Below, one piece after another: positions 1,546 to 27,008 of a DNA stretch of 32,440 nucleotides. The notes below the pieces were generated by a model. The model worked only from the letters and a program-made list of their open reading frames with translations, ran no database searches and was not told where the DNA came from. How positions within the stretch are numbered: position 1 is the first letter of the stretch; each line of letters opens with the position of its first letter. The stretch is from an uncultured Veillonellaceae bacterium (GTDB lineage Bacteria > Bacillota > Negativicutes > Selenomonadales > Selenomonadaceae). Location: the NCBI GenBank assembly GCA_900316275.1, contig ONCF01000019.1, positions 1-32,440 on the forward strand, read 5' to 3'. The position numbers and the translations under genes were made by a program.

Positions 1546-4500
1546 TCAATCCGCTGGGGGCGGCGTGCCCTGCCGCCGGGCGTGCAGCTGCTGCGCGAGG
1601 ATAGTGGCGAGTTTCTGGGCGTCGACAGGCTTGCCGATATAGTCGTTCATGCCGCAGGCGAGGCCACGGGCCACGTCGTCGGCGAAGACGTCGGCGCTAA
1701 GACCAATGATGCAGATACGGCCTTTATCCGGATGCTGGCTGCGGCGGATGGCCTGCGTCGCGCCGTAGCCGTCGAGCACGGGCATCTGCACGTCCATGAG
1801 CACGGCGTCGTAGGTACCGGCGGGCGCACTCGTGAATTTATCCACGGCGTCCCGCCCGTCCACGGCCGTGTCGGTCGTGTAGCCGCGCTCCTCGAGGATG
1901 GCCTGCGTGATTTCGCGGTTCATTTCGTTATCGTCGACGACGAGCAGATGGCAGCCGTGCGGGTCGAAGTCTGGCGGCACGGCGGGCGCAGCGGGACGCT
2001 CGGGGTGCTCCTCCGGCAGCGCGAGCGGCAGCGTGACGAAGAAGTTCGTGCCCTGCCCCGGCGCGCTCTCGACCTCGATGGAGCCGTGCATGAGCTTGAT
2101 GAGGTTCCAGCTGATGGCCATACCGAGGCCGCTGCCGCCGTACTGCTGCTTCGTCTCGGCGCTGGCCTGCTCGAACGGCTTGTAGAGTTTCTCGATATCA
2201 GCCTGACTCATGCCGATGCCCGTGTCGCGGATGCAGAACGTCGTCATGCAGACATCTTCTTTCAGCACCTGGATGACCTCGACGCGCACCTCACCGCCCG
2301 CGGGCGTGAACTTGATAGCGTTTGAGATGATATTCGTGAGTATCTGGCGGATATGCAGCGGGTCGCCCTGTACCCGATGCACGGGCATGTTCGTCGTATC
2401 AAAGACGAGCTGCACATTTTTGCGCTCACACTGTCCCTGGAAAATCGTGCGCAGGGCTTGCAGCATCTGACTGAGGTCAATGGCGTCGCTGGCAAGTTTC
2501 AGCTTGCCCTGGCCGATAGCGTTCATGTCGAGGATGTTGTTGATGAGCTCGAGCAGATGGTTCGCCGCAATATGACTGTTGTGGATGGCGTGGCGCACGG
2601 TCTCGCAGTCCTTGCCCTGATTGTCCACGAGCTGCAGGTAGCCGATGATGGCGTTGAGCGGCGTGCGGATTTCGTGACTCATGCTCGAGAGGAAATTGCC
2701 CTTGGCCTCGCTCGCGAGTTTCGCATTGCGGGCCGCCGTGGCCAGTGCCTCCTGCTGCTGCAGCTCCTTTTCGCGCGCCTGCGTGATGTCGGAGGCGTAG
2801 AAAAAGAAGCGGCGCCGGTCCGGCGAGCCGTTGTTTGCCGGTTGGAACGTGCAGGCGACATAGCCCGGCTCCCCCGCCGGTGAGCGTCGCCGCAGCTCAC
2901 AGCGGTACGGATGGCCAGCTGCGAGGCTCGTCACGATGCTCTCATAGATATCATGTCCCGGCAGGAAACGGTTGCGGTCCTCGGGCAGCAGGTTTTCCGT
3001 ATAGTCGAGCAGGTGGTAGGGCTTTTTCTCCATGCGCACGGTGCCATCAGCGTCGAGATGGTACTCGACGCAGCTCTCTTCCTCGAGGTCGACCTGCACG
3101 ACGAGATAGTTCGCCCGGCAGACATAGGCCACGAACTGCTCCAGCTCCTCGCGCCGCTGCTCGAGCTGGCGGTTGTTATGGATACGCATGATATTGAAAA
3201 ACGTAATGGTCAGCAGCAGGATGATGACCAGCGCAAAACCGAGCAACTGCAGCGGGTGGTCGAGCAGATAGTCGAGCGTCGAAATCTCGCCCGGTGTGTA
3301 CTGCGAGTGCTGCTGCAGGCTGCGCTGGATGGCCTGGTCAGACTCGTGCGGCATCGCACATTCGAAAATGGTGAGCAGGCGCGGATCGATATCCGCGCGC
3401 ACACCGAGACGCAGCGTCACACTCTGCGCGGGCAGAATGCGCACATTAAGGTCATTGCGCGGATGTTTATGCAGATAATCCTGCACGACGAGTGCCGGTG
3501 TCTCCACGGCATCGCAGGCCCCGGCGCGCAGGCCGTCCACCGCCTGTGCAAACGTGGGATAGACGCTCACGCCCAGCCCTGTAGGCATGGTATTGGCATG
3601 CTCGAGCCGCAGCTTGGTCGCAGCCGGCAGGCCCAGCCGGTCGACCGTACCCGTGAATGATTTGCGCGTGACCTGCGCCATAGGTACCTGCAGAATAGGC
3701 GCCGAAACCTTGTAGCCCGTCTGTTCGGCAATGGAAAGTGTCATCGAGGTGCCGAGCAGCACGTCGGCTTTGCCCGTAGCCACGAGCTCTTCCACCTCTT
3801 TGACGCTGTCCACCGGGTAGATTTCATACGGCAGGTCGAGACGCGCCGCCATTTCCTGGAACCAGTCCACAAGCAGGCCCTGTGGCTGGCCGCTGTCATC
3901 CATATAGGCGTAGGGCGCGCTGTGCGGCAGCATGAGCACGCGCAGCACGATGCCCTGCTGCTGCAGCTGTTCGAGATACGCCCTTTCCTCCTCCGAGAGT
4001 GAGGCCACGAGCGGGCCGCTGTCCTGATAGTAGAGTGCCTGCGTCACATGCGACCACTCCGGATGCAGCTGCTCCAGCTTCGCCTGCGCCGCGTCGAGCT
4101 GTGCCATGCGCCACTCGTCGCCCCGGCGCATCACAGCGTAGAGCGGATGCGGGTAGGCGCGGTCGAGCACGCGCGTGTCCAGTGGGTACTGCTGGCCGCT
4201 CGGCGGTATCAGGACATCGATGGCTCCGCTGCGCAATGCCGCCTCGGCCTCGCCGGCCGAGGCGAACACCACTGCCTCATACTGGAAGCCCTTGTCCGCG
4301 GCAAAACGCGGTAAATCCTCCGCCTGGATATTGCCCTGCACGTAGCCAACGCGCATAGCGTTGTACGTGGCGTACTGCTTAGTCAGATGTTTTTTGTCCG
4401 TTGTACGCACGAGCAGCGTCATGTAGTCATAGGACATAGGCCGCGCCGCATAGAGGAATTCCTGCTCCCGCGCCGGTGTCTTGTGCACGTTCAGCAGGAT

Positions 4501-4797
4501 ATCCACACGCCCCGTGCGCAGGTCATCCATGATTTTACTCCAGGCCCGCGTCGGCAGCGCATCGAGATAGGTATAGCGCCAGTTCGTGTACGTCGCCAGG
4601 TACTGCAGGTAGTCGTAGCCATAGCCCGAACGGTTGCCCCGCTCGTCGCGCATGTAGAAACCGGGGCGCGCGACATACTCCACGCGAATATTTTCCTGCA
4701 GCACACTGGGCAGACTGCCGTCCGCCAGTACGCGCCCTGGCAGCAGGCCCACCAGCACCAGCAGACACAGCAGGATTATACGAAAGAACGGCCGCAT
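1546..4797 (-). CDS. BvgS-like hybrid sensor histidine kinase with two solute-binding domains
   Basis: A 1083-residue membrane protein. It has a signal peptide (about 1-25, ending VLA), two type 3 periplasmic solute-binding domains (about 30-255 and 280-505), a transmembrane helix (about 517-536), a PAS-like linker (about 550-680), a HisKA domain with the phospho-acceptor His708 in SHEIRTPLN, a HATPase domain with N box (NIISNAIKF, near 820), DTGIGM (near 857) and GSGLGM (near 888), and a receiver domain with VVDDNE near 953 and acceptor Asp1002 in LMDVQMP. The layout is that of BvgS/EvgS, where a small ligand or its absence controls autophosphorylation, but there is no C-terminal HPt domain, so phosphate would have to pass to a separate HPt protein or the receiver may act on the kinase itself. 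ATG 4797 follows GAGGGTGA. No response regulator gene is adjacent. The ligand cannot be told from sequence. Confidence 0.93.
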   Translation of the reverse strand: MRPFFRIILLCLLVLVGLLPGRVLADGSLPSVLQENIRVEYVARPGFYMRDERGNRSGYGYDYLQYLATYTNWRYTYLDALPTRAWSKIMDDLRTGRVDILLNVHKTPAREQEFLYAARPMSYDYMTLLVRTTDKKHLTKQYATYNAMRVGYVQGNIQAEDLPRFAADKGFQYEAVVFASAGEAEAALRSGAIDVLIPPSGQQYPLDTRVLDRAYPHPLYAVMRRGDEWRMAQLDAAQAKLEQLHPEWSHVTQALYYQDSGPLVASLSEEERAYLEQLQQQGIVLRVLMLPHSAPYAYMDDSGQPQGLLVDWFQEMAARLDLPYEIYPVDSVKEVEELVATGKADVLLGTSMTLSIAEQTGYKVSAPILQVPMAQVTRKSFTGTVDRLGLPAATKLRLEHANTMPTGLGVSVYPTFAQAVDGLRAGACDAVETPALVVQDYLHKHPRNDLNVRILPAQSVTLRLGVRADIDPRLLTIFECAMPHESDQAIQRSLQQHSQYTPGEISTLDYLLDHPLQLLGFALVIILLLTITFFNIMRIHNNRQLEQRREELEQFVAYVCRANYLVVQVDLEEESCVEYHLDADGTVRMEKKPYHLLDYTENLLPEDRNRFLPGHDIYESIVTSLAAGHPYRCELRRRSPAGEPGYVACTFQPANNGSPDRRRFFFYASDITQAREKELQQQEALATAARNAKLASEAKGNFLSSMSHEIRTPLNAIIGYLQLVDNQGKDCETVRHAIHNSHIAANHLLELINNILDMNAIGQGKLKLASDAIDLSQMLQALRTIFQGQCERKNVQLVFDTTNMPVHRVQGDPLHIRQILTNIISNAIKFTPAGGEVRVEVIQVLKEDVCMTTFCIRDTGIGMSQADIEKLYKPFEQASAETKQQYGGSGLGMAISWNLIKLMHGSIEVESAPGQGTNFFVTLPLALPEEHPERPAAPAVPPDFDPHGCHLLVVDDNEMNREITQAILEERGYTTDTAVDGRDAVDKFTSAPAGTYDAVLMDVQMPVLDGYGATQAIRRSQHPDKGRICIIGLSADVFADDVARGLACGMNDYIGKPVDAQKLATILAQQLHARRQGTPPPAD

Positions 4798-4963
4798 AGT
4801 CTCACCCTCTGACTCCCCGCCCTGAGGAAACACCGCCAAACGTGTAGGTGCCCTCCGTCATTGGCGTGCATTGCGTATCGAAAAGCTCTATAGGCCACGT
4901 TGCCTGTGTGAGCATACGTTACTATCTGTCTTATTCGTGTTCTGGCCGCCAAATCCCTGCCTG

Positions 4964-5002
4964 CAAACAAAAATCGCCGCACACCATAAAAGGTGTACAG
5001 CG
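4964..5002 (-). terminator. Rho-independent terminator downstream of pflA
   Basis: On the minus strand an 11-bp stem (5002-4992 with 4985-4975, two G-U pairs) closes a TTTTAT loop and is followed by ATTTTTGTTT. It lies about 75 bases after the pflA stop and should end the pflB-pflA transcript. Confidence 0.75.
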
Positions 5003-5037
5003 ATAAAAGGGTGCTCTGAATTTGCCTGCAGCGTACT

Positions 5038-5072
5038 GGCCGAGCAGCGGCCTGCAGGCCAAAGGCTCGGCC
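5038..5072. repeat. Inverted repeat just after the pflA stop
   Basis: GGCCGAGC (5038-5045) and GCTCGGCC (5065-5072) are perfect inverted copies and enclose a second palindrome, GGCCTGCAGGCC (5049-5060). It begins six bases past the pflA stop. There is no T tract on the minus strand, so it looks like an RNA stabilising or pausing structure ahead of the true terminator. Confidence 0.5.
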
Positions 5073-18470: not shown

Positions 18471-18518
18471 GTGTCCTCTTTCTCCATGTTTTTGTGCGAT
18501 ACCCCGCATCTCATCGCA
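18471..18518 (-). pseudogene. Decayed fragment of an Rpn-type nuclease gene
   Basis: About 47 bases on the minus strand resemble the internal part of the neighbouring Rpn gene at about 19190-19147: both share GAGATGC, then TATC, AACATGGAGAAA and AGGACACTT in the same order, with a few substitutions and two small indels. It begins at the end of the intact gene (overlapping its last codons) and stops at the pyr -35 box. It is best read as the scar of a second copy. Confidence 0.6.
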
Positions 18519-19428
18519 ACGTAGGCAGATTACGTGACCGCAAAAAATCATTGATTTTGTCCGCAGGCCATTCTACCAGGTCCGAAACTTCCTCCAACGA
18601 TTTTCCTTTTTGGCTCATGCGTATAATCATATTTTGCTTTTCTTCCACACGGCCTTCTTCACGGCCTTCTTCACGGCCTTCTTCACGGCCTTCTTCACGG
18701 CCTTCTTCACGGCTGCCGATAATGTCGCTGTTATAGTCCCAGATGGCTGACTCCCGCTGCAAATACTCTCTGTAGGCGGTCTCGTCCATCAGATAGCGCT
18801 CCGAAGCATCCATGGCTTCGGCGATTTCGGGATTCAGCATGGCCAGTTCCTCCTTTTCCTGTTGATTGAGCTTATTCGCAAAGTATGCCAGCCAGCGCTC
18901 CATGCGCGTCATTTCCTTGACCGGTTTGGCTTGGTATTTCGGTATCTCAAGGAAATCAAGCTCCAAATCGTTGCTCAACTTATGCTGGTGCTTCACATCA
19001 TAGACAAAGAATTGTGAGAACGGGTCTGACGTGGGCAAAAACGGAAACCGCAAGATGTTGATGGCAATGGCCGGCTTCAGCTGCCGATAAGGCTGTCCCT
19101 TGCGCAACGCATCAAAGTGCAGGTACATCTGTGACCAATAGAAAAGTGTCCTTTTCTCCATGTTCTTATGGTTGATAACCTGCATCTCAATGTCCATGCG
19201 CGTACCGTCCTGCAGCACGCCGAACACATCAAGCCGCCCGAGCTTCTCGTCCTGCTTCTCCGGCGCAAACTCCACGTTGCGGAAACCAATATCCGTAAAA
19301 GCGTCCTTGCCTTCACGCCCGGTTGTATCATTGATGAAATTCAACGTGATGTTTTTGCGTTCCTCGCGCCCGAACACGAACTTGAACAACAGATCGTTCG
19401 TAGGGTCATACGGTCTTTTCTCCGACAC
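18511..19428 (-). CDS. Rpn-family recombination-promoting nuclease / putative transposase
   Basis: A 305-residue protein of the Rpn (PD-(D/E)XK, formerly transposase_31-like) family, whose studied members are DNA endonucleases that promote RecA-independent recombination. The N-terminus PYDPTNDLLFKFVFG is the family hallmark. The nuclease core is visible as GRLDVFGVLQDGTRMDIEMQ, with Asp and the ExQ residues expected to bind metal. The tail holds five EEGR units (about residues 239-260) encoded by perfect 12-bp repeats, then a short helical end. GTG 19428 follows GAGGAGA. It has its own promoter, and family members usually occur in many copies per genome. It is not flanked by terminal inverted repeats that I can see. 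Confidence 0.88.
   Translation of the reverse strand: MSEKRPYDPTNDLLFKFVFGREERKNITLNFINDTTGREGKDAFTDIGFRNVEFAPEKQDEKLGRLDVFGVLQDGTRMDIEMQVINHKNMEKRTLFYWSQMYLHFDALRKGQPYRQLKPAIAINILRFPFLPTSDPFSQFFVYDVKHQHKLSNDLELDFLEIPKYQAKPVKEMTRMERWLAYFANKLNQQEKEELAMLNPEIAEAMDASERYLMDETAYREYLQRESAIWDYNSDIIGSREEGREEGREEGREEGREEGRVEEKQNMIIRMSQKGKSLEEVSDLVEWPADKINDFLRSRNLPTLR
18650..18709. repeat. Five perfect 12-bp tandem repeats inside the Rpn gene
   Basis: The plus-strand unit CGGCCTTCTTCA occurs five times without error from 18650 to 18709 and encodes EEGR on the minus strand. The unit length is a multiple of three, so slippage would add or remove four residues without breaking the frame. Confidence 0.95.
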
Positions 19429-19552: not shown

Positions 19553-21625
19553 TTACGCCGTGCGCAAACGTTGCTTCATCTCAACCCGCAGTTTTGCCAG
19601 CCGCAGGCCTTCGCGGATAATGTCAGCGTAGGTGCCATGCATACGTGCTTGATCACATTGAATCTTTTGGCAGAGTAGTCTCGCCGGTATATGGCCTTCC
19701 TCTACTGGATGTTTTAGCCACGCGAGCGCGCGGTTGATGTCTCGCGGCATAATCTTGCCGTGTGCATAGCAAATACCCAGCGCATACTGCGCATCGATAT
19801 CGTCATCATCCATAGCGGCTGCCCAAATGCTTTGTCCTTCAGGAAAAACATATTGCAGATACTCGCGTTCCGACGCGAAAGTTTTCCACGGAGGGGGCGC
19901 AACGCAACGCGGATACTTCGCCTCGAACAGGATAGCCAAAGAAGAATAGTAGCCATAAGCGTTGCCGCCCTTCACAATTTTGGCGACATCTTCGCGCCGG
20001 AATTTGAACAATAGTCCTTCGGTTGGTAACTTGGCAATCTGCCATTTATCTGCTGCCGCAACATCCACAGGATTGAGGAAATTCCCCGCTACTTCGATTT
20101 GGCAGAGATTGATCCATTTGCTGCATGCCAGCAAATCATCTCCCGAAAGTCTCAGGTTGTAAGGCCCGTAAGCTTGATGCAAATGATGTTCTACATCCAG
20201 TTCGAGACAGATGACATAGTTCCCAGCCCTTGTCGCCGTCATGATGATAGATTCCCCAGTCATGGCCTTATCCCGATAAGATGCCACACAGTTATTCATC
20301 CGACGTCCGATTACTGTGAGATCATGCGTCTGCCTCGCGAGGCGGAACGCGTAATCACCAATCTGATATTCCAGGGCATAGTCTTCTGTTTTGTAAAGCA
20401 AAATGTAGTTATGCATGTCCGGCTGCAACTCGAGGACGGCTTCGCTGATAAGGTCATGGACTTCTCGCGTCAGTCCACGTCGCAAGAGCATTCTCCGCAC
20501 AGATTTCGGCAGAGCTGTTTCATAGCGTTCGAGTTGCGACAGTGTGTCAGACGTTTCCTGGTTGATGCCTTTTTTCGCAAAACGATAGAGTTCGTTCACC
20601 ATCGCGCGCTGACTCTTGTGCGCTTCAAGCCAACGCAGGTAGTACTCGACCGACGACCAAGCGATGCGAGCAACATTTTTTCGAGAGATAATGACCTTAC
20701 CTTTCCATAATTTGGCATCGGCGAACGGGATGCCGGCGATGCTTTGGTCAAACTGGTAAAATTTCTGGATGAGATTCAAATCTTCCACACCATATCCCCT
20801 GAGCAGCACATGCCAAATGATGGCATACGGATTTTTCGCATAGGCGCGGCGCAAACTGTGCGTCGGGTGAATGGCCAGATACGCACAAAGCGGATGAAAG
20901 TTATCCTTCTGCTCACGCGGAAACAATTTCGCGTAGTCTTTGCCGATGAAATGCTGCAACGCAGTCACATTCCAGTCAAATGGGTGCGCTATATAGGCGA
21001 AAACAGCCTCTTTGCCCTGCAACGGCCAGGTGATAGTCGGCCGAATACCGCACCAGGCTTTTGTGTTGTCCCTGAGTGCTTCCACTACGATAGCCGAGAT
21101 ATTCGCTGGTAAGTCAACATCCGTCTGCTCTGTCCATACGCCGCGTTCGTTGCCGTATCCCGTGTGGGATATGACAGAGACACCACGCTCCATCGCCACG
21201 TTGATAGAGAACGTCTCATAATAAAATCGCGCGCCGTAACGGTCCTGCTGGACATGGGCGACATCTACCGCCAGGAAGACAGGAGCTGATGGAGTGCTTT
21301 GGAAAATCCGCCAGCGCATTGGCACGATTTGTGGTTTCCACCAATCATACTGCCGGATAAAGCTGTGCCCAAAGCCCACTATGTCCACTTGCTCGCGCGC
21401 CCATGCAAAAACCTCTTGATTCTCTGCCTCCGTCCTAACATTGAAGTCAACGACATCATTTTCATGATAACGGTAAAATTTGAACCAATGTTGATCCCTA
21501 TCGTCATCGCAGGCGATAAAAAGTGCACAGTTCAACCTTTCCAGGCCCTCATGTGCCAGATGGTCATCCAGGCATTCCACCCATGAACCGTCCACGCCTG
21601 TCTGTACGAATGCCTTATCCAGCAT
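19553..21625 (-). CDS. PcfJ-like protein with C-terminal Sel1-type repeat (paralogue A)
   Basis: A 690-residue protein of unknown function. Residues about 425-520 match the PcfJ-like pattern known from conjugative plasmids: GDYAFRLARQTHDL, then GRRMNNCVASY (Cys446), a beta-rich stretch ending ICLELDVEHHLHQAYGPYN, resembling the family's cysteine/SY and QxxGxxN core. Near 600-645 one Sel1-like tetratricopeptide unit is seen (DAQYALGICYAHGKIMPRDINRALAWL is split by its two helices). The N-terminal 190 residues are unrecognised. ATG 21625 follows GGGAGGCGG. It lies 18 bases after paralogue B and shares with it the block KDNFHPLCAYLAIHP...SLRRAY and the MNNC block, so the two arose by duplication. 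No signal peptide or membrane helix is visible. Function and partners are not known to me. Confidence 0.75.
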   Translation of the reverse strand: MLDKAFVQTGVDGSWVECLDDHLAHEGLERLNCALFIACDDDRDQHWFKFYRYHENDVVDFNVRTEAENQEVFAWAREQVDIVGFGHSFIRQYDWWKPQIVPMRWRIFQSTPSAPVFLAVDVAHVQQDRYGARFYYETFSINVAMERGVSVISHTGYGNERGVWTEQTDVDLPANISAIVVEALRDNTKAWCGIRPTITWPLQGKEAVFAYIAHPFDWNVTALQHFIGKDYAKLFPREQKDNFHPLCAYLAIHPTHSLRRAYAKNPYAIIWHVLLRGYGVEDLNLIQKFYQFDQSIAGIPFADAKLWKGKVIISRKNVARIAWSSVEYYLRWLEAHKSQRAMVNELYRFAKKGINQETSDTLSQLERYETALPKSVRRMLLRRGLTREVHDLISEAVLELQPDMHNYILLYKTEDYALEYQIGDYAFRLARQTHDLTVIGRRMNNCVASYRDKAMTGESIIMTATRAGNYVICLELDVEHHLHQAYGPYNLRLSGDDLLACSKWINLCQIEVAGNFLNPVDVAAADKWQIAKLPTEGLLFKFRREDVAKIVKGGNAYGYYSSLAILFEAKYPRCVAPPPWKTFASEREYLQYVFPEGQSIWAAAMDDDDIDAQYALGICYAHGKIMPRDINRALAWLKHPVEEGHIPARLLCQKIQCDQARMHGTYADIIREGLRLAKLRVEMKQRLRTA

Positions 21626-21643
21626 CGCGAGCCGCCTCCCTTC

Positions 21644-23821
21644 TTACGCATCAGCCAGAGCCCCTAACATATGGTCAAGTTCTTCCTGCGTAACATAATG
21701 GGCCTCATGCGTGCGCAAGATTGTCTTGTATTTGGAAACACCGGTTGCCTGTGTACGCTCTTTCCACTTTTGCGCCATCGTCGCATCTTCGGGAAAAATG
21801 CCGCAGGGCTCACCAAAGAGATAGTACATGCCCCACATTGCTTCGCCGTTGCCCGCCTCCGCAGCATCGAGCACACGCAAGAGAATCGGGCAGACGCGGC
21901 GCAGTTCTCTGCGCTCGTCACGAACTTCGCACGCGTGATCTGCCAGTACATATTTTTGACGGACAGATTCATCCATGGCGATAGACGTGGCAAATTTTGT
22001 CAGAAATGCTGGGATACAGCCAGCGCCTGCGTCGGAGGGAACCCTCTTTGCCAAGGTCTCCATGTCATACAGCCAGAAATTTTCTTCGTTAACAGACGCC
22101 GCTGCAACAGTATCCGTATCCTGCCACACATCACTGAAAGCCTCTCCAGCATGATTTTCCAGCACCATCAAACGCATCCAGGTGCGAACAGACTGCAGGA
22201 CATCGCCTTGCAGTTGATGATTATGCGGGCCCAACGCCTGCAACACCTGGACGCCGCGCACTTCGATGCAGGCACATGTATGTCCGTCTTTCTGTACGTA
22301 GAGTAGCGTGCAATCTTTTTGCAATGCTGTTTTCATGTAGCTGGCGATACAGTTATTCATTTCCCGCCCTACTTGTAACATGACATCTGTATTGGGTATG
22401 AGGCGAAAGGCATAGTCGCCGATGTCACATTCGAGCCAACTTTCTTCCTGCGTGTAGCGGATTTTGTGATGGCTATACTTCATGCAGTTCAGTTCCGTCA
22501 CCATCTGCGCATGTACGGAGTCTGCAAAGCCATATTTGGTAAAGGCGTCCTTCACTTCAGCGGAAAATTTCGCTCCGTACTGCTCCATAATTGAACACAT
22601 GTCGTCGCACCAGCGGTCCCAGCCGTCCTGCGCCAACTTCGCCAAATAGCGTGCCGTCCACGCCTCGCCACGGCGGCTCAGGAAAAATTGTACCATCCCG
22701 TAGAGCCGTTCCCAGGCAGCATAGTCGCGACGGTCCCCGTTGAGCGACATCATGCCATTCAATAGCATGTCAATTTCTGCCTGCGTGATCCTATCGCCGT
22801 GCCCAGACGACGGCTCCTTTTCTTGTGGTGTTTCTATCGGTTCAGCTGGTGGTTCCTGCTCAGCAGCGAGGAATGGAAAACTGTAGCAGGTATATGACGT
22901 ACCTCCTTCCCACCAAGCGCAATGTTCCGAAAAATCGATATTGCCGATACGCGGATTGACTAACAATACCCGCATATGGTTATAATCGCGAAAGCCCAAC
23001 TCCAGCAGCGCCCGATACTCAATAAGTGCCAGCGGATTTTGCTGATAGAGCCGACGCAAACTTTTGGGCGGACGGATACCGAGATGCTGGCAGAACGGAT
23101 GAAAATTGTCCGTACTTGTCACAGGGAAATTCTTGTCGAAATCCTTGAAATAAGGGCGCAACAACGCACTATTGAGGTCAAGCGGACGCTCGGCAAACGC
23201 ATGTAGTTTATCCCGCCCCGTCAAGCCAGAAAGCGTAGATGGGCGTATGCCGAATTGTTTTTCCGCATCGTCTTTGAGCGCCTCTATCACGGCATCGGCC
23301 ACAGTAGCCGGTATCTTATTGTCGTCAACAGAACGGCTCGTATGCTGATATTCCTTGCCCAGTTCCAAGGGGTCATTATAAATGGAAAACTTCTTCAACA
23401 ATGGCTCATATGGATAGGGCTCCACATATGGCGCGGGACGCGTGCGCAGTTCCAGGAACTCTGTGCCCAGAATCAACGGATGCTCCGCATCACGGCGATA
23501 AAGCCACCACCGCGCGGGCAGGCTGACGGGCTGCTTCAGCTTGAGCACGTCCTGTGGAGGCAGTTTTCTCGCCCGCGCGGGGATGGTGTACTCCACGCAA
23601 ATGCCATGCAACATACAGCCAGGCTCTGTCTGCACCTCCGTCAAGGCAAACGCAGTCACAGCCTCATACGTATGATGACGTGCGCACCAGGCCAGCGAGC
23701 CATCGCCATTGTGAATGATAAGCACCAGCGGGACGCGCTCGATGTCAATTCGATTCAGTGCAGCCTCCTCGCAAAGCTGCCACTCTGCAGGCTGCACGCA
23801 ATGCACGAAATACTGCTCCAT
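21644..23821 (-). CDS. PcfJ-like protein with C-terminal Sel1-type segment (paralogue B)
   Basis: A 725-residue relative of the following gene. Shared blocks are TDNFHPFCQHLGIRP...SLRRLYQQNP (about residues 245-275) and the PcfJ-like core GDYAFRLIPNTD, GREMNNCIASY (Met488-Cys491), ACIEVRGVQVLQALGPHN. A Sel1-like segment (GNGEAMWGMYYLFGE) is near 650-690. A Pro/Glu-rich linker (about 318-340) leads into RITQAEIDMLLNGM (344-357), and the C-terminus has VTQEELDHMLGAL (710-722); both resemble the short helix at the N-terminus of FliM that binds CheY, though this may be chance. ATG 23821 follows GGGAGGCGATGT; an open frame 28 codons longer has no ribosome site. First gene of a two-gene operon, divergent from hsdS-hsdM. 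Confidence 0.72.
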   Translation of the reverse strand: MEQYFVHCVQPAEWQLCEEAALNRIDIERVPLVLIIHNGDGSLAWCARHHTYEAVTAFALTEVQTEPGCMLHGICVEYTIPARARKLPPQDVLKLKQPVSLPARWWLYRRDAEHPLILGTEFLELRTRPAPYVEPYPYEPLLKKFSIYNDPLELGKEYQHTSRSVDDNKIPATVADAVIEALKDDAEKQFGIRPSTLSGLTGRDKLHAFAERPLDLNSALLRPYFKDFDKNFPVTSTDNFHPFCQHLGIRPPKSLRRLYQQNPLALIEYRALLELGFRDYNHMRVLLVNPRIGNIDFSEHCAWWEGGTSYTCYSFPFLAAEQEPPAEPIETPQEKEPSSGHGDRITQAEIDMLLNGMMSLNGDRRDYAAWERLYGMVQFFLSRRGEAWTARYLAKLAQDGWDRWCDDMCSIMEQYGAKFSAEVKDAFTKYGFADSVHAQMVTELNCMKYSHHKIRYTQEESWLECDIGDYAFRLIPNTDVMLQVGREMNNCIASYMKTALQKDCTLLYVQKDGHTCACIEVRGVQVLQALGPHNHQLQGDVLQSVRTWMRLMVLENHAGEAFSDVWQDTDTVAAASVNEENFWLYDMETLAKRVPSDAGAGCIPAFLTKFATSIAMDESVRQKYVLADHACEVRDERRELRRVCPILLRVLDAAEAGNGEAMWGMYYLFGEPCGIFPEDATMAQKWKERTQATGVSKYKTILRTHEAHYVTQEELDHMLGALADA

Positions 23822-23934
23822 ATTACATCGCCTCCCTTGCAGTGTATATGCCTCATATATCATCAGCACCAATGGTCGTAGTTCCCATTGTGCCATTGCA
23901 AGCATGTGTAAGATGTAATTAACACTATGTACTC

Positions 23935-23963
23935 TTGACAGTTATAAAACATCGACGTAACAT
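23935..23963 (+). promoter_or_regulatory. Promoter of the hsdS-hsdM pair
   Basis: Perfect -35 TTGACA (23935-23940), 17 bases, and TAACAT (23958-23963, four of six matches). A 6-bp inverted repeat, TACATT (23983-23988) and AATGTA (23993-23998), falls in the leader about 15 bases after the expected start and could be an operator or a small RNA hairpin. Confidence 0.6.
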
Positions 23964-24021
23964 GATGGTAACGAATCATCTTTACATTAAGCAATGTACA
24001 CTGAATTGGGAGGGATGTCAA

Positions 24022-24597
24022 GTGGTTTTCTTGGGCGATATTGCCGAAATTGTCGGCGGGAAAAATGGGTACCGCGCACGCATGGAAGGGCAGCAGGTTC
24101 TTTATACCAAAGCTGACTTCGACGACGACTATTACCATATGAAATTGTCGGCTGATAGCCGCACCATCATCTATTATCAGACGCCGCCGGCCAGTGAGGA
24201 CTCAGCGCTCCCGTCGGTGCGTGCGGCGCTGCTGTCCGAGACCAACCGGGGCAAGGTGATTTATCAGGCGTTTGCTGAGATTCGGCTGGTACGTGAGGAC
24301 GTACATCCGCTGTATCTCTGCTATCTCTTAAACTGCTCACAGGCCGTCGAGCGCCAGCGGCAGATGCTGAACCAGGGCAGCGTCATCACGCGGATGTTCA
24401 CCGGCATCTTGAAAGATATGCAGATTGAACTGCCCAGCCTCGACACGCAGGCGCAAATCGGTACAGTCTACGCGACGGCAGTATATCAGGCATACCTCGA
24501 AACACAGCAGGCTAGACATACGCTGCAAGGCGTCATCTCCCTCCTGCGCCGACTGGAGCCAGACGGCTCGGAGAAACAGGAGGTGCTGACGAAATGA
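24022..24597 (+). CDS. Half-length HsdS-like specificity protein (single recognition domain)
   Basis: A 191-residue protein with one target recognition domain and one conserved helical region, about half of a normal HsdS (about 400). Visible are VVFLGDIAEIVGGKNGYRA at the start, YLCYLLNCSQAVERQRQML and GSVITRMFTGILKDMQIELP at the end of the domain, and then PSLDTQAQIGTVY with a long helix ending ISLLRRLE. Half-HsdS proteins are known to dimerise to reproduce the two-domain arrangement. GTG 24022 is preceded by GGGAGGG; the open frame reaches further upstream, into the promoter. Its TGA overlaps the ATG of the HsdM-like gene as ATGA. The order S before M and the absence of an hsdR gene are unusual for a type I restriction locus. 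DNA recognition is inferred. Confidence 0.75.
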   Translation: MVFLGDIAEIVGGKNGYRARMEGQQVLYTKADFDDDYYHMKLSADSRTIIYYQTPPASEDSALPSVRAALLSETNRGKVIYQAFAEIRLVREDVHPLYLCYLLNCSQAVERQRQMLNQGSVITRMFTGILKDMQIELPSLDTQAQIGTVYATAVYQAYLETQQARHTLQGVISLLRRLEPDGSEKQEVLTK

Positions 24598-26057
24598 TGC
24601 AACAAGCGAAAACCGCATGGGAACGTGCGCTGGAGTCTGCCATTCAGTCCGCGCGGAAACTCTGCGACGTGACGGTCTGCCGGGATGTCGCGCTTGCCCT
24701 CATCGCGTACAAATTGCTCTCGGACGTTCATGCCGCCCATTTAAAGCGCGACTGGACGTTTCCGTTGATGCTGAACCGGGCCAGCGACGGCTTTTTAACG
24801 ACAGATGACCTCAGCCAAACGCTGCAGGAGGTTTCCCACGCCATTCCACAGGTCGAGGATATCTTTGCTGACATGACCGAACGCCTGTCAGCACTGGCAG
24901 TGTCGGAGGACAAGCGGGAGGACGTGCTGAAAATCCTCTTTGAGGCGATTGCACCGTTTGACTTTGCCAAGATAGACCCCGCCGAACGCGGCGCGGCTTA
25001 TGCACGGCAGATAGAAAAGCTTGCCAAGTGCCGCAAGGCTCCCCTCTCGGTCACGCCTGCGGCCGTTTCGGAGCTCATCGCCGCCATTGTCACGCATGGC
25101 AAACGTGATACTGAGGCAGTCAGTATCTACGACCCAACGCTGGGCTCAGCTTCCTTACTTTTAAAAACAGGTGCATGCTTCCCAGACACAACCGCCGTAA
25201 ATTACTACGGGCAGGAAAACGACCAACATACCCTGTGCATCGCACGCTGGAACTGCCTGCTGCACGGCATTGCGCCGGAGGCTGCACATCTCACCGAGGG
25301 CGACACGCTGGCCGAGGACTGGTTCAGCCATGCAACTCTGGATTTGGCGTACGATATCATGGTCATGCAGCCACCGTACGGCGCGCGCTGGGCTGCCGAA
25401 CAGTATCTCCTCTATGATCCGCGCTTCGCTGCTGTCGGTGTGCTGCCGCCGCGCACACATGCAGACAACGCCTTTTTGCTGCATGGTCTCTATCAACTAA
25501 AAGAAGACGGCATAATGGCCATTATCCTGCCACACGGCGTCCTGTTTCGTGGCGGGCCTGATGGCAAGATTCGCCAATATCTCATCGAGAACGGCCTGAT
25601 TGCCGCCGTCATTGGGCTGCCAGCCAATCTGTTCTATGACAGCAAGATTCCCTGTGCCCTGCTGATTTTGCAAAAGCACCGCCCCAGCAAGGACATCCTC
25701 GTCATCGACGCCAGCAAGGAATACGCGCAGGATGGCCGACAAAACATCCTCACGCCGCAAAATACACAGCGTATTGTACAAGCTTACCTGCGGCGCGAAG
25801 ACGAACCACATTTCTGCCACCTTGCGACAATTGAGGAAATCCGCACCAACGACTATAATCTCAACATCCCGCGTTACGTTGACACGTTCGAGCCCGAGCC
25901 AGAATGTGATTTCCCGGCGCTTACCAAGGAAATGGCCACGCGTCGCCAGCAAATCGTTGCCAATAAAAATGAGCTGCTGCGGGCAATGCAGCAACTCACT
26001 CCAAGCGACGAAGATACGATGCGGATGATACAAGTATTTCAGAAGATAATAAAGTGA
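24594..26057 (+). CDS. HsdM-like DNA methyltransferase subunit with altered catalytic motifs
   Basis: A 487-residue relative of type I N6-adenine methyltransferase subunits. The N-terminal helical domain (RDVALALIAYKLLSDVHAAH) is as in HsdM, and the core is convincing: THADNAFLLHGLYQLKEDGI, AIILPHGVLFRGGPDGKIR, VIGLPANLFYDSKIPCALLI. However, three key motifs differ from the family. Motif X, usually FYTP, is S152-V-T-P. Motif I, usually DP-x-(C/M)-GSGS, is D180-PTLGSAS. Motif IV, usually NPPY/F, is Q259-PPYG, replacing the residue that contacts the target adenine amino group. Methylation may therefore be lost, although a DNA-binding complex with the half-HsdS could persist. It is translationally coupled to that gene and ends 54 bases before the convergent cheB-like gene. 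Confidence 0.85.
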   Translation: MMQQAKTAWERALESAIQSARKLCDVTVCRDVALALIAYKLLSDVHAAHLKRDWTFPLMLNRASDGFLTTDDLSQTLQEVSHAIPQVEDIFADMTERLSALAVSEDKREDVLKILFEAIAPFDFAKIDPAERGAAYARQIEKLAKCRKAPLSVTPAAVSELIAAIVTHGKRDTEAVSIYDPTLGSASLLLKTGACFPDTTAVNYYGQENDQHTLCIARWNCLLHGIAPEAAHLTEGDTLAEDWFSHATLDLAYDIMVMQPPYGARWAAEQYLLYDPRFAAVGVLPPRTHADNAFLLHGLYQLKEDGIMAIILPHGVLFRGGPDGKIRQYLIENGLIAAVIGLPANLFYDSKIPCALLILQKHRPSKDILVIDASKEYAQDGRQNILTPQNTQRIVQAYLRREDEPHFCHLATIEEIRTNDYNLNIPRYVDTFEPEPECDFPALTKEMATRRQQIVANKNELLRAMQQLTPSDEDTMRMIQVFQKIIK

Positions 26058-26111: not shown

Positions 26112-27008
26112 TTACCTCCCCGCGATGGTCTGGATGGCGGTGGCCATGTCCTGGAGGTTGAGCTGCTGCTCGACGGCGCCGCTGTCGTAGGCGGCCTTGG
26201 GCATGCCGTAAACGACGCAGCTGGCCTGGTCCTGACCAAGGGTGTGCGCGCCCGCGCGGCGCATGGCGAGCAGACCGTCGGCGCCATCGCGGCCCATACC
26301 TGTGAGCAGGATACCGAGCGCCGTGCGGCCCACGAGCTCGGCCACGGAGTCAAAGAGCACATCGACGGCCGGGCAGACGCTGTTGACGCGCGGCCCCGGC
26401 TGCACGTGCAGGCGCAGCTGCCCCGTGGCCTGCGTGAGCGACATATGCTTCGCCCCCGGTGCGATGTAGACGTGGCTGCTTTCGAGGCGCATGCCGTCTA
26501 CGCCCTCCTGCACGGTCAGCTGACACTCCGCGTCGAGCCGCTCGGCAAAGAGGCGGGAAAACATGGGCGGGATATGCTGCACAACGACGATGGGCGGCAG
26601 CGGTGGCACGAGCGGCTCCAGCACAGCCGCGAGTGCATCTGTGCCGCCCGTCGAGGCGCCGATGGCGATAATGCTCGGCGTCGGCCAGCTGACGAATTGC
26701 TGCGTCATAGCCGGTGTCAGCCGCACGGGGTCGGCCTTGACCAGCATGCCAGTGTGCTTGGCCATCATGGCCTTGACCGAGGCGGCAGCCTGCGCCGCGA
26801 ACGCCGCCGCCTTGGCTACGGTCGCCGCCGCGTTCTCGTCATCATCCACGGCAGGCCGCTTCGGCAGCGGTGGCCGCGTAGCCTGCCAGATTTCACGCGT
26901 GACGAGGGTGCCGGCCGGCATCTCCTTGGCCGGCGGCTGCCCCGCCGCCAGCTTGTTCGCCGCCCCGACAGCCTGTTGTTGATAGTTGTGTTTATCGATG
27001 TGCTCCAT
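26112..27008 (-). CDS. Stand-alone CheB-type protein-glutamate methylesterase
   Basis: A 298-residue protein whose C-terminal 190 residues are a CheB methylesterase domain, the enzyme that removes methyl groups from chemoreceptor glutamates. The catalytic triad is present: Ser119 in IIAIGASTGGTDAL, His145 in VVVQHIPPMFS and Asp241 in LLTGMGRDGADG. Instead of the usual N-terminal receiver domain there are about 110 residues that look mostly disordered or helical and Ala-rich (AAATVAKAAAFAAQAAASVK), so phosphorylation control as in CheB is absent. ATG 27008 follows GGTGA. No other chemotaxis gene is nearby. It could serve a chemotaxis-like signalling pathway encoded elsewhere. The methylesterase fold is certain; the substrate is inferred. 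Confidence 0.9.
   Translation of the reverse strand: MEHIDKHNYQQQAVGAANKLAAGQPPAKEMPAGTLVTREIWQATRPPLPKRPAVDDDENAAATVAKAAAFAAQAAASVKAMMAKHTGMLVKADPVRLTPAMTQQFVSWPTPSIIAIGASTGGTDALAAVLEPLVPPLPPIVVVQHIPPMFSRLFAERLDAECQLTVQEGVDGMRLESSHVYIAPGAKHMSLTQATGQLRLHVQPGPRVNSVCPAVDVLFDSVAELVGRTALGILLTGMGRDGADGLLAMRRAGAHTLGQDQASCVVYGMPKAAYDSGAVEQQLNLQDMATAIQTIAGR

Follow-up and report, generated by a model that had tools for sequence, protein, structure and literature searches.

The window, meaning here the whole stretch of 32,440 nucleotides that was analysed, carries a gene for a half-HsdS followed by a gene for a degenerate HsdM, and this pair, made up of type I restriction components, is probably a DNA-binding autoregulator. 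Half-HsdS genes in type I operons appear in print without a known job. The evidence consists of motif loss in the HsdM-like protein, selection, paired palindromes above controls, covariation of recognition domain and operator, and repeated loss of catalytic motifs in dedicated HsdM copies. The initial annotation had proposed a non-methylating role for the HsdM-like protein, as a DNA-binding or decoy complex with the half-HsdS. A DNA-binding role together with the half-HsdS, without methylation, is the best reading. The decoy complex obtained no specific support; the two putative operators at the promoter rather suggest autoregulation.

Gene pair and promoter region

The half-HsdS gene (24022..24597, + strand) starts with GTG and encodes 191 aa. 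Its open reading frame extends up to 23935, but the aligned gene of G073, the nearest relative, begins at the equivalent of 24022. A Shine-Dalgarno-like GGGAGGG was read from the sequence at 24008..24014 (+). The degenerate HsdM gene (24594..26057, +) encodes 487 aa; it follows the half-HsdS gene with a 4-bp overlap, in keeping with the pairing proposed initially. Upstream, a sigma-70-like promoter, TTGACA-N17-TAACAT (23935..23963, +), was identified by consensus scan with 10/12 matches. Operator-like site 1, GTAATTAACACTATGTAC (23915..23932), is located just upstream of the -35 hexamer and operator-like site 2, TTACATTAAGCAATGTAC (23982..23999), contains the perfect inverted repeat TACATT-AAGC-AATGTA, neither being assigned to a strand. 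Promoter-like sites in this region numbered 4, as compared with 1.7 in shuffles.

Two PcfJ-like genes are arranged in tandem at 19553-23905 (-). The second is divergent from the half-HsdS gene, so that site 1 also lies within its upstream region. A gene for an Rpn-family PD-(D/E)XK nuclease/transposase (18511-19428, -) adjoins pyrB. Downstream of the degenerate HsdM gene and convergent with it is a cheB-like gene (26112-27008, -), in the product of which Pfam detected only the methylesterase domain, without a receiver domain. When synteny around cheB was compared in 3 other genomes of the genus, only cheB matched among the window proteins tried, and no empty site was readable. Among the genes of the window, no full hsdS or hsdR adjoining the pair was found; HsdR-like matches on other contigs of the same genome were below the family cut-off.

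The half-HsdS was assigned to Pfam Methylase_S (E 1e-4). Its AF2 model, obtained with 11 half-HsdS sequences, comprised a single recognition domain and, at 140-178, a single long helix (pLDDT 78, pTM 0.74), and was matched by Foldseek to HsdS 1yf2 and EcoKI HsdS. The second-best PDB match of this model was Esub1 (8vsr, in complex with Prx), 185 aa long and with an HsdS-like fold; a literature search gave nothing on this protein. With one recognition domain, about 190 aa and a position beside hsdM, the window gene resembles the hsdS_short type, while the full-length hsdS and hsdR that belong to the operon in that type are absent from the window and present in G073. A helix-turn-helix domain, as expected for a C protein, was not found in the window pair, for which Pfam returned only Methylase_S and N6_Mtase.

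Motifs and fold of the degenerate HsdM

The three altered motifs were confirmed in the open 487-aa frame: SVTP for FYTP in the motif X region (25047..25058, +; residues 152-155), GSAS for GSGS in the motif I region (25143..25154, +; residues 184-187) and QPPY for NPPY in the motif IV region (25368..25379, +; residues 259-262). HGLYQLKEDGI, LPHGVLFRGG and IGLPAN are intact, as described before. The canonical motifs at the altered places were read by alignment from active HsdM, including EcoR124I HsdM (7bst), and from 3lkd; the fold and most of the sequence are common to these proteins and the window protein, which differs from them in motifs X, I and IV. Loss had been described as limited to the SAM and catalytic sites. 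This has to be amended, as alignment gaps place a shortened N-terminal region in the window protein relative to the active HsdM of G073.

Pfam N6_Mtase was detected with E 3.6e-80. Against TIGR00497 (hsdM), the score of 235.9 bits did not reach the curated cut-off of 242.75. The AF2 model (pLDDT 84) has the HsdM fold, with 3lkd_A as best Foldseek match (TM 0.80). Of the features of a type I HsdM, the protein hence retains the N6_Mtase domain and the fold, and lacks the catalytic NPP[YF] and the SAM motifs. Among 51 single HsdM proteins of half-HsdS operons outside the degenerate group, 49 carried canonical motifs (F[YF]TP, GSG, NPP[YF]), which places the three-way change far from background. 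The two exceptions were L111 (GSAS) and L121 (NMPF). GSAS was dropped as proof of lost activity because L111 is a single, otherwise canonical HsdM. QPPY is a private change of the window; G073 has NPPY at this place. Turning an Asn codon into a Gln codon (AAY to CAR) takes two base changes, which makes one sequencing error an unlikely source of QPPY.

The protein might still methylate, weakly or at another base, and regulate by methylating its operator. The HsdM fold appears intact in the model, NPPY is kept in G073, and NPPY and GSG are both kept in L123, one of the copies described below. However, Gln replaces the catalytic Asn in the window, and the corresponding motif reads DMPL or DPP[MI] in Ligilactobacillus salivarius and VPPF in L119; residual methylation is given hardly any probability.

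Nearest relative and selection

Among 189 genomes of the family, matches at E<=1e-104 came only from the window's own genome and from G073, which belongs to another genus. The pair was present in 0/3 other genomes of the window's genus, and scans of the viral_contigs and genome_contigs collections with the window protein found no relative. Relative to the window, the half-HsdS of G073 is 84% identical and its HsdM-like protein 72% identical. The latter shares SVTP and GSAS with the window and keeps NPPY. Uniqueness to the isolate, which according to the initial annotation would speak against a selected role if accompanied by other decay, thus applies to QPPY only and not to SVTP and GSAS. In G073, the half-HsdS and HsdM-like genes are followed 26 bp on by genes for an 862-aa HsdM (FYTP/GSGS/NPPY), HsdS and HsdR. 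The idea that such proteins go with a lack of hsdR was not borne out, the G073 copy lying directly before hsdM-hsdS-hsdR and those of L042 and L046 likewise ahead of type I genes with hsdR.

Between window and G073, dN/dS was 0.16 for the degenerate HsdM and 0.11 for the half-HsdS, which indicates purifying selection on the protein sequences of both, and the selection assumed for the HsdM-like protein is upheld. Upstream of the genes, similarity to G073 stops just above site 1. Conservation begins at this site, 17/18 bases of which are kept; both the -35 and the -10 hexamer are kept, as is site 2 bar one base.

Alternatively, the pair could be a decaying relic of a lost type I system, with motif loss due to drift. 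QPPY being private to the window, the absence from the window of the downstream M-S-R genes of G073 and the absence of the pair from the 3 other genomes of the genus would all agree with this. Against it stand the open frames, the low dN/dS values and the conservation of promoter and putative operators, the occurrence of SVTP and GSAS in G073 ahead of an intact operon, and motif loss in parallel elsewhere. A relic is accordingly rated as quite unlikely.

Paired palindromes at half-HsdS promoters

At half-HsdS promoters, two copies of an 18-20-bp bipartite palindrome were found around the -35/-10 region. Halobacillus (L040) and L. salivarius (L042), for instance, each have two copies of GTAATT-N6-AATTAC, and Staphylococcus (L052) has two of TGTAG-N10-CTACA. 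A scan for two GTAATT-N6-AATTAC sites 41-69 bp apart covered the genome_contigs collection, described as comprising 84,980 genomes. This yielded 17 loci, 13 of which had a half-HsdS homologue, directly behind the second site in 10 cases and at 0.9-1.6 kb in 3. In the remaining 4/17, without half-HsdS, the two sites were identical copies in 3. A viral scan with a looser double operator gave 1 contig, again with two identical sites, in which tblastn found no half-HsdS. In Serratia quinivorans (L066, 286-2088), a DUF4917 gene separates the operator pair from a half-HsdS that lies ahead of a type I operon. In Levilactobacillus namurensis (L069/L124), the operator pair is 1.6 kb upstream of the half-HsdS and no hsdM was found behind it.

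For quantification, matches with an open frame <240 aa were taken as half-HsdS, frames >=240 aa being left out as likely full HsdS. The working set consisted of 64 half-HsdS loci, 62 with an HsdM. L049 (broken half-HsdS), L054, L058, L067 and L071 are outside this set, and G650 and G596 were left out as repeats of G502 and G333. A log-odds pair score was calculated for the 150 bp before each gene and compared with 400 dinucleotide shuffles (100 each for control promoters). A first operator score with 5-bp arms was saturated, shuffles hitting its maximum. As the log-odds score was chosen after the output of the first score had been seen, independent loci were analysed apart, these being loci that had not been looked at before the log-odds score was devised and had not come from the operator scan.

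An operator pair was detected at p<=0.01 in 29/50 non-redundant half-HsdS promoters, and 26/50 reached z>=4. Control promoters, comprising 150 of the 174 other promoters of the same loci, gave 1/150 at p<=0.01 and 0 at z>=4. In a second control, type I hsdM promoters without half-HsdS, 1/19 reached p<=0.01 (L030). Among the independent loci, the pair was present in 18/34 (Fisher p 1e-14). A sigma-70-like promoter was located between or at the sites in 27/29 operator-bearing loci.

Several results were counted against the autoregulator reading: the window's operator pair did not reach significance on its own, the operator pair was absent in 16/34 independent representatives, the pair score detected none in L119, and site 1 of the staphylococcal class lies, as read from the sequence, within a terminator-like hairpin. 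In a clade of half-HsdS proteins starting with GLV..RK (L114, L116-L118, L120, L121, L147-L149), whose members are leaders before type I genes, 0/9 representatives had the pair.

In the 18 independent loci, similarity of recognition domains and similarity of operators were correlated (Mantel rho 0.47). The partial Mantel correlation was 0.44 (p 0.0005) given the C-terminal part, and -0.13 for the C-terminal part given the recognition domain. Across all 29 positives, it came to 0.37 when the C-terminal part was controlled for and to 0.32 when the spacer separating the sites was. On these sequence comparisons, the sequence of the palindrome tracks the recognition domain of the half-HsdS.

Scored alone, the window operator pair was not significant (z 0.9, p=0.21). 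From the operator pair of L113 (z 6.5), which has a related half-HsdS, the half-site GTAMAT was derived. Sites 1 and 2 are two of the 9 sites matching GTAMAT-N6-ATKTAC with <=1 mismatch in the 2.19-Mb window genome, site 1 deviating at 1 position, and the exact TACATT-N4-AATGTA in site 2 is the sole mismatch-free match in that genome. Conservation in G073 and the matches to the L113 consensus lend support to the putative window operators, which are not significant alone.

The same counts bear on the possibility that the pair is a decoy or interfering subunit, competing with other type I complexes or occupying sites genome-wide. HsdR-like and HsdM-like genes do occur on other contigs of the genome. 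Nevertheless, with so few near-matches to the operator consensus, two of them at the pair's own promoter, a local regulator fits better and a decoy is very improbable.

Half-HsdS operons and degenerate HsdM copies in other bacteria

Half-HsdS leader genes are spread across Bacillota, usually ahead of an HsdM with intact motifs. A plasmid search with the half-HsdS returned Halobacillus, Sutcliffiella, Enterococcus, Staphylococcus, Leuconostoc and 31 L. salivarius records. Using a half-HsdS alignment, matches were obtained in 22/398 genomes sampled from the window's phylum and in 43/398 sampled from the class of G189. The prevailing gene orders were half-S, M, S, R; R, half-S, M, S; and half-S, R, S, M. 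In a Leuconostoc plasmid (L053, 6785-9531), genes for cytosine and adenine methylases take the place of hsdM behind the half-HsdS, and an operator pair was not found.

Altered HsdM proteins were found as extra or stand-alone copies adjoining a half-HsdS. Apart from the window and G073, these comprise L041, L043, L044, L045 and L047 (YTS/GTAS/DPP[MI]), L042 and L046 ([FI]TP/GTAN/DMPL), the very degenerate L119 (SITN/GYG/VPPF; in genome G289, with half-HsdS and HsdM at 3072-5064 of the locus) and the mildly altered L123 (FLTP/GSGQ/NPPY). In a further half-HsdS operon of G289, L120, the HsdM is canonical. A quick tree was made from 92 HsdM rows; the degenerate label requires 4 changes on it, of which well-supported branches force 3, long branches leaving the exact placement uncertain. 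Judged from this tree, degenerate HsdM copies arose several times.

In L. salivarius, the detailed view covered 7 of the 31 records, including both copies in one record. The first type of degenerate module follows a divergent integrase and precedes varied cassettes: BREX in L041 and L044, type IIG-like methylase, helicase and GIY-YIG genes in L043 and L047 (PADLOC models), and methylase pieces with a helicase in L045. The second type (L042, L046) precedes a type I operon including hsdR. The pair thus accompanies different defence cassettes. In L. salivarius Ren, both module types are present on one plasmid (L046 and L054). A module in L058, a MAG named Candidatus Scybalomonas, has about 96-97% protein identity to that of L. 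salivarius, reflecting recent transfer or a binning error.

Proposed mechanism

Half-HsdS subunits would dimerise, and each dimer would carry two degenerate (or ordinary) HsdM subunits, giving a presumed M2S2 complex. In the window, this complex would bind the two bipartite palindromes bracketing the -35/-10 region (23915-23932, 23982-23999), block RNA polymerase and shut the promoter between the sites, presumably without methylating them. The operon would in this way measure its own product and be held at a set level. No defence genes lie behind the window pair, so that in cis it would act only on itself and, possibly, on the divergent PcfJ-like gene.

The half-HsdS leader of most relatives would rely on the same active HsdM as the rest of the operon. 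In the window, G073, L. salivarius and perhaps two more lineages, an extra HsdM copy would have been dedicated to the half-HsdS and lost its methylation motifs. With such a dead HsdM, the regulator may no longer depend on the methylase pool and the operator may escape modification, which would explain the mobility of the pair ahead of other systems. Since HsdM/HsdS complexes are bound by phage DNA mimics, e.g., Ocr and ArdA, sensing of anti-restriction proteins by the pair is conceivable, speculatively followed by release of the defence operon.

That half-HsdS dimers with a dedicated pseudo-methylase scaffold constitute an undescribed class of transcription regulators, portable to type I, BREX and type IIG-like cassettes, is a possibility rated just short of probable. 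In the open PMC literature, neither a regulatory half-HsdS, nor half-HsdS operators, nor a dead-HsdM partner was found described. If the proposal is true, type I systems would have an inherent control circuit, with co-evolution of recognition subunit and operator, and the dead methylase would be a pseudoenzyme regulator, movable ahead of other defence systems. The putative operators would provide an independent read-out of recognition-domain specificity from sequence alone, and bacteria would have an unexpected way of holding anti-virus genes in check.

Comparison with known systems

In type II systems, controller (C) proteins and autoregulating methylases regulate their own operon via repeated promoter sites. 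RptR is another repressor, acting on type I operons according to the available part of PMC12255303. The proposed pair is like C proteins and RptR in autoregulation of a restriction operon through repeated promoter sites. These are, however, small dedicated transcription factors or helix-turn-helix parts, whereas the reader in the window would be a type I recognition subunit; moreover, in the degenerate cases the partner of the half-HsdS would be a dead methylase.

In engineered form, a half-HsdS together with HsdM forms a dimer that methylates the palindrome ACCN5GGT, and the authors liken such dimers to homodimeric transcription factors (PMC6158711, available part). One recognition domain, a dimer and a palindromic bipartite target would be common to this construct and the window pair; unlike the latter, it is engineered and catalytically active. 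Natural half-HsdS proteins beside hsdM and a full hsdS are described, in the portions available, for hsdS_short in the hsdRSMS type I variant of S. xylosus and other staphylococci (PMC10030836) and for the partial HsdS_IA of BlihIA in B. licheniformis (PMC12429846). Both resemble the window in having a half-HsdS beside hsdM, and differ in that HsdM is active and shared. Within these portions, a stabilising role is suggested in one of the papers and a regulatory role via hybrid dimers is speculated on in PMC12429846. A regulatory half-HsdS is not described as such in the available parts of PMC12839542, PMC12255303, PMC3874152, PMC6158711, PMC10030836 and PMC12429846.

The S. xylosus data bear on a further alternative, namely that the half-HsdS, with or without the degenerate HsdM, is a factor for assembly or stability of the type I methylase, the palindromes serving another regulator. 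As reported in the available text of PMC10030836, proper methylation by the long HsdS in E. coli, with expression from promoter PN25, depended on hsdS_short. In a construct without hsdS_short, transcripts differed only 0.36-1.23-fold, which together with the spoiled methylation indicates a role in assembly or translational coupling rather than regulation alone. Overexpression of hsdS_short was toxic, and Table 3 of that text gives no motif of its own for it. These results, obtained with a foreign and not the native promoter, argue for a role in the methylase complex besides, or in place of, regulation. Against a pure assembly factor, L. salivarius has pairs that are followed, in the stretches viewed, by BREX or type IIG-like genes and by no full HsdS, the window pair stands alone, and recognition domain and operator change together; this explanation is considered unlikely. 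As regards the autoregulator reading, the promoter of hsdS_short on the plasmid of S. xylosus TMW 2.1324 has a TGTAG-N10-CTACA pair (z 6.5, p 0.0025), the first site of which is also a terminator-like hairpin.
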